Source: a bacterium (lineage in GTDB: Bacteria > Bacteroidota > Ignavibacteria > Kapaibacteriales > UBA2268). Taken from it: a stretch of DNA of 64,000 nt. Where the stretch lies: contig JANJTB010000032.1 of NCBI GenBank assembly GCA_024711295.1, forward strand, positions 124,001 through 188,000, read 5' to 3'. Shown here piece after piece: positions 4,926 to 12,372 of this stretch. The notes under the pieces are model-generated. The model made no database searches, was not told the DNA's origin, and saw only the letters and a list, made by a program, of their open reading frames with translations. How positions within the stretch are numbered: the stretch's first letter is position 1; each line of letters starts with the position of its first letter. A program made the position numbers and the translations under genes.

Positions 4926-6557
4926 ATGTTAAAAGAAAAAGTAATTTTAATACTTGAAAATACACTAAATAAGTTATATCCTGAAATTCCTTTAGAAATT
5001 ATTTGTGATACTCCAAAAAATCTGCAACATGGTGATATTTCAGTTAATGTTGCAATGCAGTTAGCTAAGCCATTAGGCAAGCCACCCCGCTTAATTGCCG
5101 AAGAAATCATCGAAAATATTCAGAGTGACTCACAAGTAATTGAAAATATCGAAATAGCAGGTCCGGGTTTCATTAATTTCAAATTCAATAAATCTTTCAT
5201 TAACAGTTCTTTATCTAAAATACTTGAACTGGGTGTAAATTACGGCAGACAAAATATCGGTACCGGAAAGAATGTAAATGTTGAATATGTCAGTGCCAAC
5301 CCTACCGGACTTTTACATTTAGGACATGGCAGAAATGCAGTTATAGGAGATACAGTAGCTAATTTGTATCAATGGCTTGGATTTAACGTCACACGTGAGT
5401 ACTATTTCAATAATGCCGGAAATCAGATGAATAATTTGGCAAAATCAATTTTTGCCAGATATATGCAGATCGAAAATCCTGATTATGACTTTCCTGAGGA
5501 CGGATATCACGGTGAATATATTAAACTTATCGCTGAAGACTTAAAAAAAGAATTCCCAATCGAACTCAAGGGCGAAGAAAAAGAAGTTTTAGAATTATGC
5601 AGGAAAAAAGGCGAGGAATGGTGTTTTGCAAAAATTAAACAAACACTTCAACGCATGCAAATATCCCAAGACATTTTTTATAATGAAGACTCGTTGTATA
5701 AAGATGGAAAAATTGAAGAAGTAATTCAAATATTCAAAAACCTTGGTTTAGCATACGAAAAAGATGGCGCTCTATGGCTTAAATTATCTGAAATGGGGCT
5801 TGAGAACGATAGAGTAATTGTTAAGTCAAGCGGTGAACCGACTTACAGACTACCGGATATAGCATATCACAGGGAAAAATTCCGCCGTGGATACGACCTC
5901 ATTGTTGATGTATTCGGTGCCGACCATATCGCAACTGTACCGGATGTAATAGCAGGTGTAAAAGCATTGGGCTATGAACCGGATAAAGTTAAAGTGTTGA
6001 TACACCAATTCGTAAGCTTAACAGAGAATGGCGAACTTGTTAAAATGAGTAAAAGAACCGGGAAGTCATATACACTTGACGACCTACTTGAAGAAGTTGG
6101 TGAAGATGTTGTAAGGTTTTTCCTTTTGATGCGTGGTATTGGCACACATCTTGAGTTTGACTTGTCGTTGGCTCGTGAGCAAAGTGACAAAAATCCGGTA
6201 TTTTATCTTCAGTATGCTCATGCTCGCATTTGTTCAATTTTTGATAAAGCTGGTGAGATTGATTTAAAAAATGTCGATTTATCTTTACTAAACAGCGAAG
6301 AAGAACAAAACCTTATTAAAAAAATATTCTTATTTCCCGAAACCATAAGAGCTTCGGCGAATAAATTCGAAGCACAGATACTTACTGAGTATTTGAGAGA
6401 TTTAGCAGGATTATTCCATGTATTTTACCACAATTGCAGGATTATCGGCACTGAGCATAATTTAGCAAATGCCAGATTATCATTAGCTTTGGCTACCAGG
6501 AATGTGTTAAGCAATGGTCTAAAAATACTTGGAATTTCGGCACCGGAAAGAATGTAA
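4926..6557 (+). CDS. argS: Arginyl-tRNA synthetase
   Basis: 543 aa from the ATG at 4926. A TTG at 4917 would add three residues and overlap rsfS. Class Ia synthetase that charges tRNA-Arg. Signatures: the N-terminal Arg-tRNA-synthetase domain (residues 1-85), the HIGH-type motif HLGH at 131-134 within SANPTGLLHLGHGRN, and KMSKR at 373-377. A DALR anticodon-binding domain fills the last ~120 residues and the chain ends in the usual Met (APERM). Length is normal for a compact bacterial ArgS. It probably shares a transcript with rsfS. Confidence 0.97.
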   Translation: MLKEKVILILENTLNKLYPEIPLEIICDTPKNLQHGDISVNVAMQLAKPLGKPPRLIAEEIIENIQSDSQVIENIEIAGPGFINFKFNKSFINSSLSKILELGVNYGRQNIGTGKNVNVEYVSANPTGLLHLGHGRNAVIGDTVANLYQWLGFNVTREYYFNNAGNQMNNLAKSIFARYMQIENPDYDFPEDGYHGEYIKLIAEDLKKEFPIELKGEEKEVLELCRKKGEEWCFAKIKQTLQRMQISQDIFYNEDSLYKDGKIEEVIQIFKNLGLAYEKDGALWLKLSEMGLENDRVIVKSSGEPTYRLPDIAYHREKFRRGYDLIVDVFGADHIATVPDVIAGVKALGYEPDKVKVLIHQFVSLTENGELVKMSKRTGKSYTLDDLLEEVGEDVVRFFLLMRGIGTHLEFDLSLAREQSDKNPVFYLQYAHARICSIFDKAGEIDLKNVDLSLLNSEEEQNLIKKIFLFPETIRASANKFEAQILTEYLRDLAGLFHVFYHNCRIIGTEHNLANARLSLALATRNVLSNGLKILGISAPERM

Positions 6558-6590
6558 TAATATTGATTTATAAATAAAAAGGCAGGAAAA

Positions 6591-6833
6591 ATGGAATTAC
6601 CGATTATTGTACAAAGACACTCTTACAAATTAGAATTAGAACCAGGTTCTTATTGGTGGTGTGCCTGTGGCAAATCATCCAATCAACCCTTTTGTGATGG
6701 TTCTCATAAAGGTTCAGGATTCAACCCCAAAGAATTGATCATAAGCGAAAAGAAAATTTATTCAGTTTGTGGTTGTAAGCATTCTCAAAAGGGTGCTTTA
6801 TGTGACGGCACACACCGTAACCTACCCGAATAA
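6591..6833 (+). CDS. CDGSH iron-sulfur domain protein (two tandem motifs)
   Basis: 80 aa with two CDGSH clusters. The first is CACGKSS...PFCDGSH and the second CGCKHS...LCDGTH. Each gives the three Cys and one His that bind a [2Fe-2S] cluster in mitoNEET/Miner-type proteins. Tandem CDGSH proteins of this size are common in bacteria and are thought to take part in Fe-S or redox handling; the exact role here is unknown. It is preceded by a purine-rich site (aggaaaa) 34 bases after argS and followed by a terminator-like hairpin at 6853-6880. Confidence 0.93.
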   Translation: MELPIIVQRHSYKLELEPGSYWWCACGKSSNQPFCDGSHKGSGFNPKELIISEKKIYSVCGCKHSQKGALCDGTHRNLPE

Positions 6834-6852
6834 ACATGTAATTATTAGCTAG

Positions 6853-6880
6853 GCTCCATATTTATATTTTAATGTGGAGC
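6853..6880 (+). terminator. Terminator-like hairpin after the CDGSH gene
   Basis: GCTCCATA pairs with TGTGGAGC (8 pairs, one G-U) around a 12-base T-rich loop and is followed by TTACTATTTA. It overlaps the first possible ATG of the next frame (6872), which argues for the later start at 6920 for that gene. Confidence 0.5.
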
Positions 6881-6919
6881 TTACTATTTAATCAAAAATT
6901 ATACTTTAGAAAAAGAAAG

Positions 6920-7459
6920 ATGTATTTTGGCTTTAATTTTGAAAGCTTATATGCTCCGGCATTATCGGTATTAGTTACTGAAACAATCAACTTTGCAGGT
7001 AGAAAAATTGCCCAGAAACAACAGTCTCAAATCGGCAAAATAAATGAAAAAATTGTTCTAAGAGGAAGTAGTCCCAAAGTAAAATATTTTAAGTATGGAA
7101 TGATAGCATTTGGTTCAATTGTTGGACTATTGAGCATAAGCGCTGGTATAATTTCAGGCGATTTTTCATTGATGAGCAAAGGGGTTGGATATGGTTTTGG
7201 ATTTGCATATTTCCCTTCAAGATTAGACCAGGGTAATACTCTTTTCATAGGCACAGATGGTTTTATGCTAAGGGATATGATTTGCAAATGGAGTGATTTC
7301 GACCGGTTTGAATGGGACAGTGATATCGGACAAAAAAGTTGGGGTGTGAAATTCTATAAAAAGAATCAAAAAGCTTACACAAAGGCTTATATTAATAGAA
7401 AACATAAAGATGAAATCAATTCTATCCTAAGTAAAATTTTTCATGATTTTCATAATTAA
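6920..7459 (+). CDS. Small membrane protein with C-terminal PH-like (DUF5673-like) region
   Basis: 179 aa from the ATG at 6920, chosen because the upstream ATG at 6872 lies inside a hairpin and the 6920 start has a purine-rich leader (agaaaaagaaag). One or two hydrophobic segments (GMIAFGSIVGLLSISAGII and a Gly-rich GVGYGFGFAYF) lie in the middle. The C-terminal ~75 residues (FIGTDGFML..., WSDFDRFEWD, ..INSIL) resemble the bacterial PH-like/DUF5673 fold of small membrane proteins. I do not recognise a specific family and propose no function. Confidence 0.65.
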   Translation: MYFGFNFESLYAPALSVLVTETINFAGRKIAQKQQSQIGKINEKIVLRGSSPKVKYFKYGMIAFGSIVGLLSISAGIISGDFSLMSKGVGYGFGFAYFPSRLDQGNTLFIGTDGFMLRDMICKWSDFDRFEWDSDIGQKSWGVKFYKKNQKAYTKAYINRKHKDEINSILSKIFHDFHN

Positions 7460-7470
7460 TTAATCATATC

Positions 7471-7501
7471 TTTAATTATTGCTCAAAATTTGTTACTTTC
7501 G
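7471..7501 (+). promoter_or_regulatory. Possible Bacteroidota-type promoter of tryptophanase
   Basis: TTTA-N19-TACTTTCG partly matches the Bacteroidota consensus TTTG-N19/20-TAnnTTTG. It lies 46 bases upstream of the tnaA ATG. An 8-bp inverted repeat (TGCTCAAA at 7480-7487 and TTTGAGCA at 7534-7541) brackets the presumed transcription start and could fold in the leader. Confidence 0.35.
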
Positions 7502-7547
7502 TAAGTAGATAATTAACAATAACGTACATTTTATTTGAGCATTAATA

Positions 7548-8924
7548 ATGAAAACTTTAATCGAACCATTCAAGATAAAAACCGTTGAAGAAATTCCGAT
7601 TACTACACGTGAGCAGCGTGAAAAATATTTAAAAGATGCTTTTTATAACCCATTTTTTCTAAGATCAGAGCATGTAACAATTGACTTGCTGACAGATAGC
7701 GGAACAACTGCAATGAGCAGCAAACAATGGGCAGGATTAATGGACGGTGACGAAGCTTATGCAGGAAGTCGCAGTTATTACAAATTCGAGAATATTGTAA
7801 AAGAAATAACAGGTTTTAAAAATATTATACCTACCCATCAAGGTAGAGCAGCCGAAAAAATCTTATTCACGTTAGTCGCAAAACCAGGAATAACAATACC
7901 CTCAAATTCTCATTTCGACACTACCAGAGGTAATATCGAATACGCAGGGGCTGATGCAGTTGATAACTTAGTTGACGTAGGTATGCAACCGGAGATTGAA
8001 GCAGACTTCAAAGGTAATATGGACGTCGAGAAATTAAGAAAATTAATTCTAGAAAGAGGACCTCAGAATATTCCTTTGTGCATGCTAACTGTTACCAACA
8101 ATACAGCCGGCGGTCAACCAGTCTCAATGCAAAACATAAGAGATACTAAATCAGTACTCAAAGAGTTTGGTATTCCACTCATACTTGACGCTTGCAGATT
8201 TGCAGAGAATGCTTACTTCATTAAGAAAAGAGAGCCCGGTTATCAAAATAAAACAATTAAAGAAATTGCACAGGAAATGTTTTCCTACGCAGATGGTGCT
8301 ACAATGTCAGCGAAAAAAGACGGATTATCTAATACCGGAGGCTTCCTTGCATTAAATAATGATGAGCTTGCAGAACAGGCAAAAGTATTGCTAATTATAA
8401 CAGAAGGATTTTTGACCTATGGCGGAATGACACGCCGCGACCTTGAAGCTTTGGCTCAGGGATTTGTAGAAGTACTCGAAGAAAGTTATCTGGAACTGCG
8501 AATTGGTCAAATTCAGTACTTAGGTAATAAGCTTCTCGAAGCCGGAGTACCGATTTTACAACCTACAGGTGGACATGCTGTTTATCTTGATGCAAAAAGA
8601 TTTGCTCCACATATTCCACCACACCAGTTCCCTGGTCAGAGCGTACTATGCGAGCTTTATCTGGTTTCGGGCGTTCGCTCTGTCGAAATTGGCTCATTAA
8701 TGTTTGGTAAAGAAGACGCTGCCGGAAACCCTCTAGCACCACCAATGGAATTAGTGCGTATGGCAATACCAAGAAGGGTTTACACACAGGCACATACTGA
8801 TTACGTGGCGGAAGCATGTATCGAAACATACCAGAATAGAAGCAAGCTCAGAGGCATGAAAATAGTTCACGAAGCAAAATATTTACGACATTTTACTATC
8901 AAATTGGACTATGTAGGTAATTAA
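7548..8924 (+). CDS. tnaA: Tryptophanase
   Basis: 458 aa PLP-dependent beta-eliminating lyase: L-tryptophan to indole, pyruvate and ammonia. The PLP lysine is the second Lys of SAKKD (K257). Two sites separate tryptophanase from its sister tyrosine phenol-lyase. Here the residue before TTR is Asp (D124 in HFDTTRGN), as in E. coli TnaA, where tyrosine phenol-lyase has Thr. The loop reads SVEIGS, where tyrosine phenol-lyase has the substrate-binding Arg. The segments ARFAENAYF-like (CRFAENAYF), GGHAVYLDA and RVYTQAH agree. No TnaC-like leader peptide or transporter is visible next to it. A tyrosine phenol-lyase paralogue lies at 62.3 kb. Confidence 0.93.
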   Translation: MKTLIEPFKIKTVEEIPITTREQREKYLKDAFYNPFFLRSEHVTIDLLTDSGTTAMSSKQWAGLMDGDEAYAGSRSYYKFENIVKEITGFKNIIPTHQGRAAEKILFTLVAKPGITIPSNSHFDTTRGNIEYAGADAVDNLVDVGMQPEIEADFKGNMDVEKLRKLILERGPQNIPLCMLTVTNNTAGGQPVSMQNIRDTKSVLKEFGIPLILDACRFAENAYFIKKREPGYQNKTIKEIAQEMFSYADGATMSAKKDGLSNTGGFLALNNDELAEQAKVLLIITEGFLTYGGMTRRDLEALAQGFVEVLEESYLELRIGQIQYLGNKLLEAGVPILQPTGGHAVYLDAKRFAPHIPPHQFPGQSVLCELYLVSGVRSVEIGSLMFGKEDAAGNPLAPPMELVRMAIPRRVYTQAHTDYVAEACIETYQNRSKLRGMKIVHEAKYLRHFTIKLDYVGN

Positions 8925-8996: not shown

Positions 8997-10718
8997 TTAT
9001 TTGATAACATTTATAGCTTTAAAAATAGTTTTTTTACCGGTATCAATTCTAACATAATAAACTCCTGATGACAAACCACTTAAGCTTACCGGTAAATTCC
9101 TTACATCACTATTCATTTTTCCGTTATATAAATTCCTAATTTTTAATCCAGTTTGATCAAACAAATCCATGTTTAGATAATCCAATTCTGTATTAATTTC
9201 TATATTAACATTATCATTAGCCGGATTAGGATAAACATTGATTTGATTTAATGAGAAATCGTCTTCAACATTAGCTGTAACAGATTGCAGCATAAGAACT
9301 GTTCCGTCTGGCAAAGCTGCATATAACCCAAAATCATCACCTTCACTATTGTTTGCAGGATTCAAAAAACCACTGGCAAATACGTTTATTCCCAAGCCAC
9401 CTGCATTTAAGTTTTGCAATGGAACCTCATAGGTTGCAACTGTTGCAGTACCGGTTTCGTCTCTTACTTCAATTACATAATTATTGACAGGAAGGCTTAA
9501 ATTGCCCGAAAATTCACCAAAGCCGAGATTATCAATCAAAGTGCCGGCTCCTATACCAGTTTCGACAACATCTACGTCCGGAGCATCAGTTGCACCATGG
9601 AACACATTCACAACTACATTATTAGGACTTTCAGAGCTTTCAACACTACCCTTAAACATGTGAAGATTAAACGGAACTCTTGGCTCATAACCATTCTGGC
9701 TAACTATTCCTGATGCTATTACAGTGTAAGTGTCTGGTTCTAAATTTACAACAAACAAAGCTAATGGATTCTCAGCGCTCTCACTATCTGACGGTTGAAT
9801 AGCGATTTCCAAATCAACACCGGAAGGTAATTCAGTATATGGTGTAGCCTTTCTGAACTCAAAATTATCAAATGCCAAAATTCCATTAACATAAATGTCA
9901 ACTTGTTGAGCTGCTTTGTCTGCTGAATTGTGGATTATTTGTACCTTTGCTTTAGAGACTTCTTCATTATACAATGGTATTTCGATAACTGTACCATCAG
10001 CAGCAGCTGCAAATAATCCAAATGACTGACCATCACTATTAACTCCGGGATTTAAGAAACCGCTTGCAAAAACATTCAAAGCAGTACCACCGGCTTTCAA
10101 AGTTTTCAATGGAACACTATACCTTGCCACAATAGTTTCACCAGTTTCGTCTCTAATATCAATAATATAGTCTTCAGCTGGTAACGATAAATATCCAGAG
10201 AATTGCCCATAACCCAAGTCATTAATAATGGTTCCTGCTCCTACTCCACTTTCGACAACATCAACTTTTGGCGCGTCTGTGGAACCATGAAAAACATTTA
10301 TATCTACAAAATTTGGGTCTGTGGCAATATCTCTGGAATTGGGATAAACAATTAAATCAAAAGGAATAGTAGGTTCGTAACCAGAGTCGCTTACAATTCC
10401 GGATGCAATAACAGTATAGGAAACATTAGGTTCAAGATTGAACTTAAACAACGCTAATGGATTTTCTGCATTCGTGCTGTTTGATGGTTGTATTGCAACA
10501 AAAATATCAGTCTGAGAAGGTAATTCAATAAATGGAGTTGCCTCTCTGAAACCAAAGTCGTCAAACTCTAAAGTTCCATTTACATAAATATCTACCTTAT
10601 CTGCTAGTTTATCAGCAGAATTATGAATTATTTGAACTTTAGCATTGTTTGAAAAGGCATGGCTGCTCAAAAAAGAGACAAACAATGCAACTATAGCGAA
10701 AAATTTATACAATGTCAT
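8997..10718 (-). CDS. Secreted tandem DUF4397 protein with T9SS sorting domain
   Basis: 573 aa. Signal peptide at residues 1-21. Two near-identical blocks at about 27-250 and 258-478, offset 231 residues, each start AKVQIIHNSAD. Within each block there is a second, diverged unit (NVFHG.TDAP.VDVVE at 139 and 369), so the protein carries four DUF4397-like units of ~110 residues. The last ~85 residues (NVYPNPANDNV to NVIK) are a type A T9SS sorting domain. DUF4397 is found in extracellular proteins with no firm biochemical role; a surface or matrix function is inferred. It is divergent from the B12-binding regulator across a 231-base region with repeated TTGTATAA sites. Confidence 0.88.
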   Translation of the reverse strand: MTLYKFFAIVALFVSFLSSHAFSNNAKVQIIHNSADKLADKVDIYVNGTLEFDDFGFREATPFIELPSQTDIFVAIQPSNSTNAENPLALFKFNLEPNVSYTVIASGIVSDSGYEPTIPFDLIVYPNSRDIATDPNFVDINVFHGSTDAPKVDVVESGVGAGTIINDLGYGQFSGYLSLPAEDYIIDIRDETGETIVARYSVPLKTLKAGGTALNVFASGFLNPGVNSDGQSFGLFAAAADGTVIEIPLYNEEVSKAKVQIIHNSADKAAQQVDIYVNGILAFDNFEFRKATPYTELPSGVDLEIAIQPSDSESAENPLALFVVNLEPDTYTVIASGIVSQNGYEPRVPFNLHMFKGSVESSESPNNVVVNVFHGATDAPDVDVVETGIGAGTLIDNLGFGEFSGNLSLPVNNYVIEVRDETGTATVATYEVPLQNLNAGGLGINVFASGFLNPANNSEGDDFGLYAALPDGTVLMLQSVTANVEDDFSLNQINVYPNPANDNVNIEINTELDYLNMDLFDQTGLKIRNLYNGKMNSDVRNLPVSLSGLSSGVYYVRIDTGKKTIFKAINVIK

Positions 10719-10757
10719 GAGAACCTCATTATTATGTTTGTAAATTGTTTGTATTGA

Positions 10758-10932
10758 TTTTGTATAATATCTAATTTACAATTGAAAAATTTAAAACATC
10801 TCATTAATACAGCAATATAGACAATTTCATTTTATATTTATTTTAGATTATTTTTCTGATAATAATTATTTTTATACAATTATTTATACAATTTCTTTAC
10901 AACAATAATTTTATTCATTTATTTTGTATAAA
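10758..10932. promoter_or_regulatory. Repeated TTATACAA / TTGTATAA sites in the divergent regulator region
   Basis: Two direct copies of TTTATACAATT start at 10871 and 10883 (12-base period). An inverted copy TTGTATAAA lies at 10924-10932, and a further TTGTATAA-like copy (TTGTATAAT) at 10760-10768. They sit between the DUF4397 gene and the MerR/B12 regulator. The repeats are seen directly; operator function is inferred from the position next to a MerR-type regulator. Confidence 0.45.
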
Positions 10933-10949
10933 TTTATTATTTTTGAATT

Positions 10950-11834
10950 ATGAAAAATGCACTAAAATATTCAATTGATTTAACATCAAAGAAAACAGGA
11001 CTCAGCAAGAATATCATCAGAGCCTGGGAAAATCGTTTTAATATTCTTACACCTGATAGAACTGAGACAAACCGAAGGTTATATTCAGATAAAGATATTG
11101 AAAAACTAAAATTGCTTGCCGAAGCAACTCGGGCAGGGCACAAAATCGGCAACATTCACTCATTAAGTAATGATGAACTTAGAAAGCTAATTTATTCTGA
11201 TGGTGAAATTCCTTCTTTACTTAATGATGACGCACTAAAGGTAATTATTGATTCAATTAAGAAGTTTGATGAGGCGACATTAAGGAAGAAAATTGGAGAT
11301 TTTCTTGTAAATAACTCCAAGCCCGGATTTATTTTCAATTTTATGATACCTTTAGTAGAGAAGATTGGCAATATGTGGAAATCTGGTGAGCTGAGAATTT
11401 CCCATGAACATTTTGCAACCTCAATAATCACAAGCATACTAATTAGAATGCGCGAAATTGAGTCAAGGGATAATCTGGCGCGAAGAATTATTGTTTGTAC
11501 TCCTTCGGGTCAACGCCACGAAACCGGTGCATTGATTGCAAGTGTACTTCTCGCCTCGATGGGGTGGGTTCCAATTTATTTGGGTGTGGACTTGCCTGCC
11601 GAAGAAATTGCATTTGCCGCTAAAGCCACAAATGCTAATGCTGTGGCAATGAGTGTTATTTTTCCTTCCAACGAATCAATGCTTCTTACCGAAATTGAGA
11701 AGTTAAGTACATACCTACCTGACGGCTTGATTATTATTGGTACAAAATTCAGATTTAATGAAGATAACATTAAATTTATGAATGTCAACTTTGTGGCCGA
11801 CTTCGATGCACTTTATGATTTGTTGGAAAAATAA
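10950..11834 (+). CDS. MerR-type regulator with B12-binding domain, CarH/LitR-like
   Basis: 294 aa. An N-terminal MerR winged helix (YSIDLTSKKTGLSKNIIRAWENRF, then NRRLYSDKDI) is followed by a four-helix B12-cap region and a Rossmann-type cobalamin-binding domain. The cap carries the Wx9EH signature of light-sensing CarH proteins: W143, then nine residues, then E153-H154. The B12 loop reads GQRHETG, with His190 and Gly193 of the DxHxxG motif kept and Gln188 in the acidic position. Known relatives bind adenosylcobalamin in the dark and release DNA in light. Residue 144 is Lys, whereas I recall Thermus CarH having the light-state ligand His right after the Trp. No carotenoid, photolyase or sigma gene is adjacent. 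Confidence 0.88.
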   Translation: MKNALKYSIDLTSKKTGLSKNIIRAWENRFNILTPDRTETNRRLYSDKDIEKLKLLAEATRAGHKIGNIHSLSNDELRKLIYSDGEIPSLLNDDALKVIIDSIKKFDEATLRKKIGDFLVNNSKPGFIFNFMIPLVEKIGNMWKSGELRISHEHFATSIITSILIRMREIESRDNLARRIIVCTPSGQRHETGALIASVLLASMGWVPIYLGVDLPAEEIAFAAKATNANAVAMSVIFPSNESMLLTEIEKLSTYLPDGLIIIGTKFRFNEDNIKFMNVNFVADFDALYDLLEK

Positions 11835-11934: not shown

Positions 11935-12372
11935 ATGAAAAAAATAGTTTATTTGCTTTTACTGCTTCCAATTTTATTTTTGTTTTCTTGCTCTGACGAT
12001 AACCCGGTAAACCCTGAAAATTCAGACTTAAATGGTACATGGTCTACTGAGCTTATTCAAGGATATGATACAGTAAGATGCACTGTAGTAATAACAGAAT
12101 CCAAAGGTAAAATATCAGGCACAGGTGATTTGTACATATTCCATAAGATTGTTTCAGGAAGCTCATCTACAAGTGAGTCTTCAACCAACAAAGGTAATAT
12201 AACAGGCACATACGAGGGAGGAGTAGTTAAAATTAATTTCTCAAGCACAGATTTTGATAAATTCGAAGGTGTGCTGAGTGAAGATAAAACATCAATTAGC
12301 GGAAAGGTAAGCACAATACTATTACTCTCACAAAACAAAGTTGAATATAATATTACTCTTTTAAAGAATTAA
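11935..12372 (+). CDS. Small lipoprotein, lipocalin-like
   Basis: 145 aa with a lipoprotein signal (MKKIVYLLLL... lipobox LFSC, Cys19). A serine-rich stretch (SGSSSTSESS) lies in the middle, and alternating beta-strand segments such as LNGTWSTEL, GKISGTGDLY, GNITGTYEGG and ISGKVST suggest a small lipocalin or META-like barrel. The purine-rich AAAGGGA upstream of the ATG is a plausible ribosome binding site. It starts 100 bases after the regulator and ends 21 bases before recG, so some cotranscription is possible. Function unknown. Confidence 0.75.
   Translation: MKKIVYLLLLLPILFLFSCSDDNPVNPENSDLNGTWSTELIQGYDTVRCTVVITESKGKISGTGDLYIFHKIVSGSSSTSESSTNKGNITGTYEGGVVKINFSSTDFDKFEGVLSEDKTSISGKVSTILLLSQNKVEYNITLLKN

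Follow-up and report, generated by a model that had tools for sequence, protein, structure and literature searches.

Among described regulators, Thermus thermophilus CarH (LitR; PDB 5c8d/5c8e/5c8f) combines a MerR domain with helical and Rossmann B12 domains, in that order, and lies next to phytoene synthase and photolyase genes. Its Arg176–Asp201 pair forms part of the dimer interface, and its H132A variant is reported to stay largely tetrameric after illumination (PMC10442372). The published CarH operator consists of tandem 11-bp direct repeats with the consensus nAnnTnnACAn (PMC8156234); in the Thermus record, located in a divergent promoter region, these read TGTACA, TTGACA and TATACA at 11-bp steps. 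Many myxobacterial CarH proteins have the His that ligates cobalt after illumination, while the related CarA lacks the Trp of the Wx9EH motif (PMC9304148). The SignatureFinder study defines GxxW, EH, GxxH and GxxxP as the light-response signature of B12 domains, and describes CtMerR of Chloracidobacterium thermophilum (PDB 8jbs/8jbt) as experimentally light-responsive with Arg after the Trp, its anaerobic light structure lacking bis-His ligation, and SasPcob and AbDPcob as light-responsive with Gln and Tyr at the same place (PMC11796333). Class II LitR proteins of Pseudomonas (PplR/PmlR) use T(G/A)TACA half-sites reminiscent of those below, but with N12 spacing, a LOV partner and only the four-helix B12 domain, and photolyase, FolE and UfaM are among the light-induced targets of the LitR family in that genus (PMC9758184).

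Here we analyze a CarH/LitR-like regulator encoded in a 64-kb stretch of DNA (hereafter the window; genome G000), divergent from a gene for a secreted DUF4397 protein. The locus comprises the following features:

8997–10718, minus strand: secreted protein in which Pfam recognizes four DUF4397 stretches, with a Por_Secre_tail sorting domain at the C terminus; divergent to the regulator
10719–10949: shared intergenic region, with two operator-like clusters recognized from the sequence
10739–10766: operator-like cluster 1, by the DUF4397 gene start; TGTAAA (10739), TGTATT (10750) and TGTATA (10761) in 11-bp steps
10873–10901: operator-like cluster 2, by the regulator start; TATACA (10873), TATACA (10885) and TTTACA (10896) in steps of 12 and 11 bp
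10925–10930: lone extra TGTATA element, 19 bp upstream of the start codon of the regulator
10950–11834, plus strand: CarH/LitR-like regulator, identified by its open reading frame, Pfam, alignment and structure matches

The regulator gene begins with ATG and encodes 294 residues, arranged as a MerR helix-turn-helix (residues 7–72), a helical B12-binding_2 domain (99–164) and a Rossmann B12-binding domain (179–264). This is the architecture of CarH and class I LitR, and the Rossmann domain sets the protein apart from class II LitR. Pfam recognized MerR_1 (E 1.1e-13) and B12-binding_2 (E 5.1e-7), and the Rossmann model matched at E 8.8e-5 and 22.8 bits, below its 32.1-bit cut-off. The closest solved structures are the T. 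thermophilus CarH/LitR entries 3whp and 5c8d (E ~2e-22), at 25% identity for Thermus CarH, and the closest named relatives are two Candidatus Kapaibacterium/Kapabacteria proteins (40 and 42% identity). An AlphaFold2 model built with four relatives (mean pLDDT 82.6, pTM 0.66) retrieved full-length TtCarH as matches 1–12 in a PDB comparison, with CtMerR lower in the list (18–19% identity in the structural match). The B12 part of the model agrees with TtCarH at a TMt of ~0.83 and ~3 Å, and with CtMerR at up to 0.75; full-length TM-scores against TtCarH are moderate (~0.5–0.6, rmsd >10 Å), indicating that the domain arrangement is poorly reproduced. The CarH equivalog of NCBIfam (NF052513) was the best-scoring family, at 101.1 bits against a cut-off of 400.

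Residue numbering was checked by alignment with TtCarH and nine other proteins. W143, E153, H154 and H190 align with TtCarH W131, E141, H142 and H177, the last being the lower axial His, so the Wx9EH spacing noted in the initial annotation reflects homology rather than chance. All four elements of the light-response signature are present: G140xxW143, E153–H154, G187–Q188–R189–H190 (GxxH) and G212xxxP216. The alignment also upheld the two substitutions pointed out there: Lys144 lies opposite TtCarH H132, the upper axial His that occurs in some CarH/class I LitR members without defining them, and Gln188 lies opposite the Glu of TtCarH GERH, leaving the D/ExHxxG motif without its acidic residue. 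R189 and D214 correspond to the Arg176 and Asp201 dimer pair, which is present in the window protein and its sister in G067 and absent from the orthologues in G085, G043 and G044. On the grounds of its architecture, Wx9EH motif, lower His and operator design (below), we describe the protein as CarH/LitR-like, with CarH-like working, as part of a variant clade whose conserved target is new; we do not call it CarH in the strict sense, since the acidic residue of the B12 motif is absent and the equivalog cut-off is missed.

To place the Lys144 substitution in context, the window protein was compared with 38 further rows, among them order-, class- and phylum-level relatives and TtCarH. Conservation is high for the Trp (36 of 38 rows) and for EH and the lower His (35 rows each), and all five orthologues of the order retain these residues together with GxxxP. 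Far more variation is seen directly after the Trp: this residue is K, K, K, R and R in the five order orthologues (the window protein included) and H, R, K, E, K, E, S, N, R and R in the class-level rows L072–L081, while phylum-level rows have Q, L, T, G, I or D. His occupies this position in three of the 38 (TtCarH, L072 and a homologue from Gemmatirosa in which the Trp is missing), suggesting that few related regulators share the His ligand that Thermus CarH uses after illumination. The initial annotation had singled out the changed ligand; given this variation, and the light response of CtMerR, SasPcob and AbDPcob with Arg, Gln and Tyr, we no longer regard it as a special feature of this regulator. 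Gln188 is common to all five order orthologues and nine of the ten rows L072–L081, and occurs in 14 of the 38 further rows overall. Two homologues have lost the core residues themselves: the class-level homologue L083 (in G325), possibly a B12-independent derivative, lacks the Trp, EH and lower His, and the Gemmatirosa homologue, encoded on a plasmid, lacks the W, E and lower His. Separately, a CarH-like gene from a planctomycete (Planctomycetota; L019:7956-8852) has Ala after the Trp and, by eye, a divergent photolyase-like gene at 6345-7904.

Regulator matches at E 1e-10 or better were found in 6 of 123 genomes of the order, five of them full-length (G000, G067, G085, G043 and G044) and the sixth covering the B12 part only; such B12-part-only matches, in contig C11 of G000 and in G069, were not counted as orthologues. 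With a cut-off of E 1e-30, a profile of the five orthologues matched 67 of 395 genomes of the phylum. A quick tree of 38 rows grouped the five together (SH-aLRT 98) among class-level rows; it contains several long-branched rows, and its deeper placements are unsure. All five orthologue genomes encode a cobalamin adenosyltransferase, on contig C13 in the window's genome.

The secreted DUF4397 neighbor named in the initial annotation proved to be more than a local feature: a divergent gene for a DUF4397 and Por_Secre_tail protein lies beside the regulator in all five full-length orthologues, which form one clade and are not independent instances. DUF4397 is found in 96 of the 123 order genomes, so a DUF4397 match by itself says little; its strictly divergent placement next to the regulator in five genomes is more telling. 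G068, from the same genus, has neither a regulator nor a DUF4397 match. We regard the DUF4397 gene as the regulator's likely conserved target rather than an incidental neighbor. Directly downstream of the regulator lies a small lipoprotein-like open reading frame (11935-12372) with no Pfam match, which is absent from this position in G067.

Homologues occur at 12 class-level places, and wide neighborhoods were compiled for ten, leaving out G293, which shares its signature residues with G461, and G325, which holds L083. The regulators of L100, L102–L107 and L109 resemble the window protein in the Trp, EH and lower His, in GQxH for the most part, and in the 11-bp operator design; unlike it, several adjoin genes for photolyase, crtI, folE, fatty-acid-modifying enzymes or ECF sigma factors. 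DUF4397 is divergent to the regulator in two of the ten neighborhoods, L100 and L102, which come from orders other than the window's. Behind DUF4397, L100 carries an SRPBCC-like gene (by eye), fasciclin and crtI, with a photolyase nearby, and L102 combines DUF4397 with fasciclin and an ECF sigma gene. The L100 regulator, from G419, retains His at the position of Lys144. Elsewhere we found (partly by eye) folE in L105, ECF sigma genes in L104 and L106, a photolyase in L106, and CMAS-family, desaturase or DUF1295 genes beside the regulator in L103, L107 and L109; light-type genes were not seen by eye in L101 and L108. Those neighborhoods that do contain light-type genes, together with the signature and the operator design, lend good support to the initial suggestion of a cobalamin-dependent light switch.

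The operator design was assessed by counting spaced elements. Cluster 2 contains the sole exact TnTACA pair at 11-bp spacing in the window, and the middle element of cluster 1, TGTATT, is one base off TGTAnA. In the 350 bp upstream of 15 regulators, TnTACA and TnGACA elements formed 18 pairs at 11 bp and at most two at any other spacing from 7 to 23. At least one exact 11-bp pair of either element lies upstream of the regulator in 12 of the 15 loci, such a pair not being found in G067, G180 C144 and G461; the remaining 271,323 bp of these loci contained four pairs, one of which overlaps the start codon predicted for the G479 regulator. The TnGACA half-site, which also occurs in the Thermus operator, was added to the pattern after the sites of L100 and L102 had been seen; TnTACA alone gives 12 pairs in 10 of 15 loci, against two in the rest. 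Across the five orthologue intergenic regions, six exact TnTACA pairs occur at spacing 11, compared with a shuffle mean of 0.04 and none of 2000 shuffles reaching six. Taken alone, the window's locus is modest in this respect, with one exact pair, a count reached in 19 of 2000 shuffles, and G067 has no exact pair, only one-mismatch pairs. Seven exact pairs were found in the ten class-level loci (~158 kb), all between the regulator and its divergent neighbor, the G479 pair among them.

Relaxing the pattern to at most one mismatch gave 25 sites in 11 genomes versus 12 for a reversed control, and 11 of the 25, spread over 8 of the 11 genomes, map either to the stretch preceding the regulator or to its start codon. 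One such site, at G000 C10:51531, falls within a coding open reading frame and was regarded as a chance occurrence. When three consecutive elements were required, each with one mismatch allowed, only G000 and G067 among the five matched. Judged by sequence, the locus carries a putative operator of the tandem 11-bp direct-repeat type of CarH and class I LitR. The operators at L100:7331-7508 and L102:8449-8681, both at loci with DUF4397, keep the 11-bp spacing with TnGACA in place of TnTACA. A promoter scan returned five promoter-like sites versus 5.0 expected, and no promoter was located by it.

We next consider candidate targets elsewhere in the genome. The initial annotation had held that the usual targets, carotenoid and photolyase genes, are absent. 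This is correct for the neighborhood, as none was seen by eye beside the regulator in the order orthologues, but not for the genome: contig C6 of G000 carries a crtI-family gene above the NCBIfam cut-off next to a phytoene/squalene-synthase-family gene, C19 has two more genes of the latter family, and C34 encodes a photolyase above the phr2 cut-off. In stretches of 12–18 kb, an exact 11-bp pair was absent from the crtI, photolyase, squalene/phytoene-synthase and adenosyltransferase loci; we accordingly rejected the crtI, photolyase and squalene/phytoene-synthase loci, which lack an operator, as targets. The regulon appears decoupled from the crtI and photolyase genes, although sites too degenerate for the scan are possible.

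A second candidate site is the double repeat TGTATAATATTTGTATA, shared by G000 and G067, which lies between a PTPS/queD-like gene followed by folE and a DUF4292 lipoprotein–NAGPA pair. The double 11-bp repeat is identical in the two genomes (L031:7585-7678 and L032 near 7140), and a further copy of the repeat lies ~850 bp on, at the NAGPA gene start. Exact double TGTATA occurs at ten places in the five genomes versus five for the reversed control, with three in regulator intergenic regions, four at the DUF4292 locus and three elsewhere. Of 19 genomes carrying a DUF4292 orthologue, five have the regulator and 14 do not; the site occurs in two of the former and in none of the latter, which include G068 of the same genus. 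Loci L171 and L172 in this comparison are cut by contig ends.

Collectively, the domain order, signature residues, conserved operator-like repeats and conserved gene pair, all read directly from the sequence, point to a probable function: we consider it rather likely that the regulator is an adenosylcobalamin (AdoCbl)-dependent dark repressor of its own gene and of the DUF4397 gene, released by light. In the dark, the regulator would bind AdoCbl as an oligomer, with His190 as the lower cobalt ligand and W143 and E153 holding the adenosyl group. The AdoCbl-bound oligomer would grip the tandem 11-bp direct repeats in the shared promoter region and, from there, shut off both its own gene and the divergent DUF4397 gene. 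Upon illumination, the Co–C bond would break and the adenosyl group leave, and loss of the oligomer or of its grip on DNA would allow both genes to be expressed. With Lys at position 144, the light state is probably not bis-His; instead, the Glu of the EH motif would swing towards cobalt, as in CtMerR, which resembles the regulator in its full signature and in having a basic residue, Arg, at this place. The behavior of TtCarH H132A, mostly tetrameric in light, suggests that the output step may differ from that of Thermus. AdoCbl binding, the light response, repression, the direction of regulation and the role of DUF4397 are all inferred here; the DUF4397 protein could perhaps contribute to a surface layer made under light.

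Alternative readings accept parts of this evidence. The regulator might bind AdoCbl and the repeats yet respond to AdoCbl supply or cobalamin form rather than light, Lys144 and Gln188 making the photolysed state unproductive. The missing bis-His ligand, with the H132A precedent in TtCarH (PMC10442372), fits such a cobalamin-level sensor, as do the lack of carotenoid or photolyase neighbors in the order orthologues (by eye) and the presence of the adenosyltransferase. This reading is nevertheless unlikely, as class relatives with K, E, S or N at this position adjoin photolyase, folE, fatty-acid-modifying, fasciclin and sigma genes, and the proposed ligand is itself photolabile, as AdoCbl is in general; CtMerR, moreover, responds to light with Arg here (PMC11796333). 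A more distant prospect is a CarA-like, B12-independent regulator, whose B12 domains would serve as a scaffold under control of another signal or partner. Gln in place of Asp/Glu in the B12 motif could be read in this way, and motif loss in L083 and the Gemmatirosa plasmid homologue illustrates that such loss does occur; W143, the residue that CarA lacks, is present, however, and conservation of W, EH, the lower His and GxxxP in every order orthologue makes this quite improbable.

Least probable of all, and in our judgment very improbable, is that the repeats are not an operator but −10 promoter elements (TGTATAAT-like) arrayed in tandem within an AT-rich intergenic region. The element does resemble TATAAT, the region is very AT-rich and CarH operators overlap promoters. 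Against this, the window contains no excess of TTTGTATA (5 copies versus 6.5 expected), the exact pair occurs once in 64 kb, pair spacing has its peak at 11 bp, and the design holds with TnGACA elements in L100 and L102; within the genus, moreover, both genomes that carry the regulator have the DUF4292-locus site, and the one that does not carry it lacks the site. We therefore rejected the notion that the operator is a general promoter motif.

Returning to light-released repression, a broader and more tentative proposal, which we hold somewhat below even, is that in this lineage the control exerted by a B12 photoreceptor has shifted from pigment and DNA-repair genes to the cell surface, such that light turns on DUF4397 (and, in this genus, also the DUF4292 lipoprotein/phosphodiester glycosidase or queD-folE-like unit via the second operator) through a light state without bis-His ligation. 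If true, DUF4397 would for the first time be assigned a function, that of a surface protein of the light response. The regulator itself places an under-studied bacterial group among those with likely B12-based light sensing. The locus offers a concrete operator and target, and makes a light-response role for DUF4397 testable. Three papers in one open-access library name DUF4397, none of them dealing with light as judged by title and opening abstract lines, and pairing of a CarH-type regulator with a DUF4397 or surface gene was likewise not described in the titles and opening abstract lines of papers in that library; as far as these searches show, the regulator is of a known kind and its target wiring is new.

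The window's genome encodes a second Wx9EH B12 protein on contig C11 (L013:7932-8579, minus strand), a stand-alone domain pair of 215 residues with Glu after the Trp and an NEQHQIG loop. The stretch scanned around it contains no exact 11-bp pair. It is followed on the same strand by a 153-residue open reading frame without a Pfam match and a histidine kinase (6309-7490), raising the possibility that this protein provides B12-linked sensor input to the kinase.
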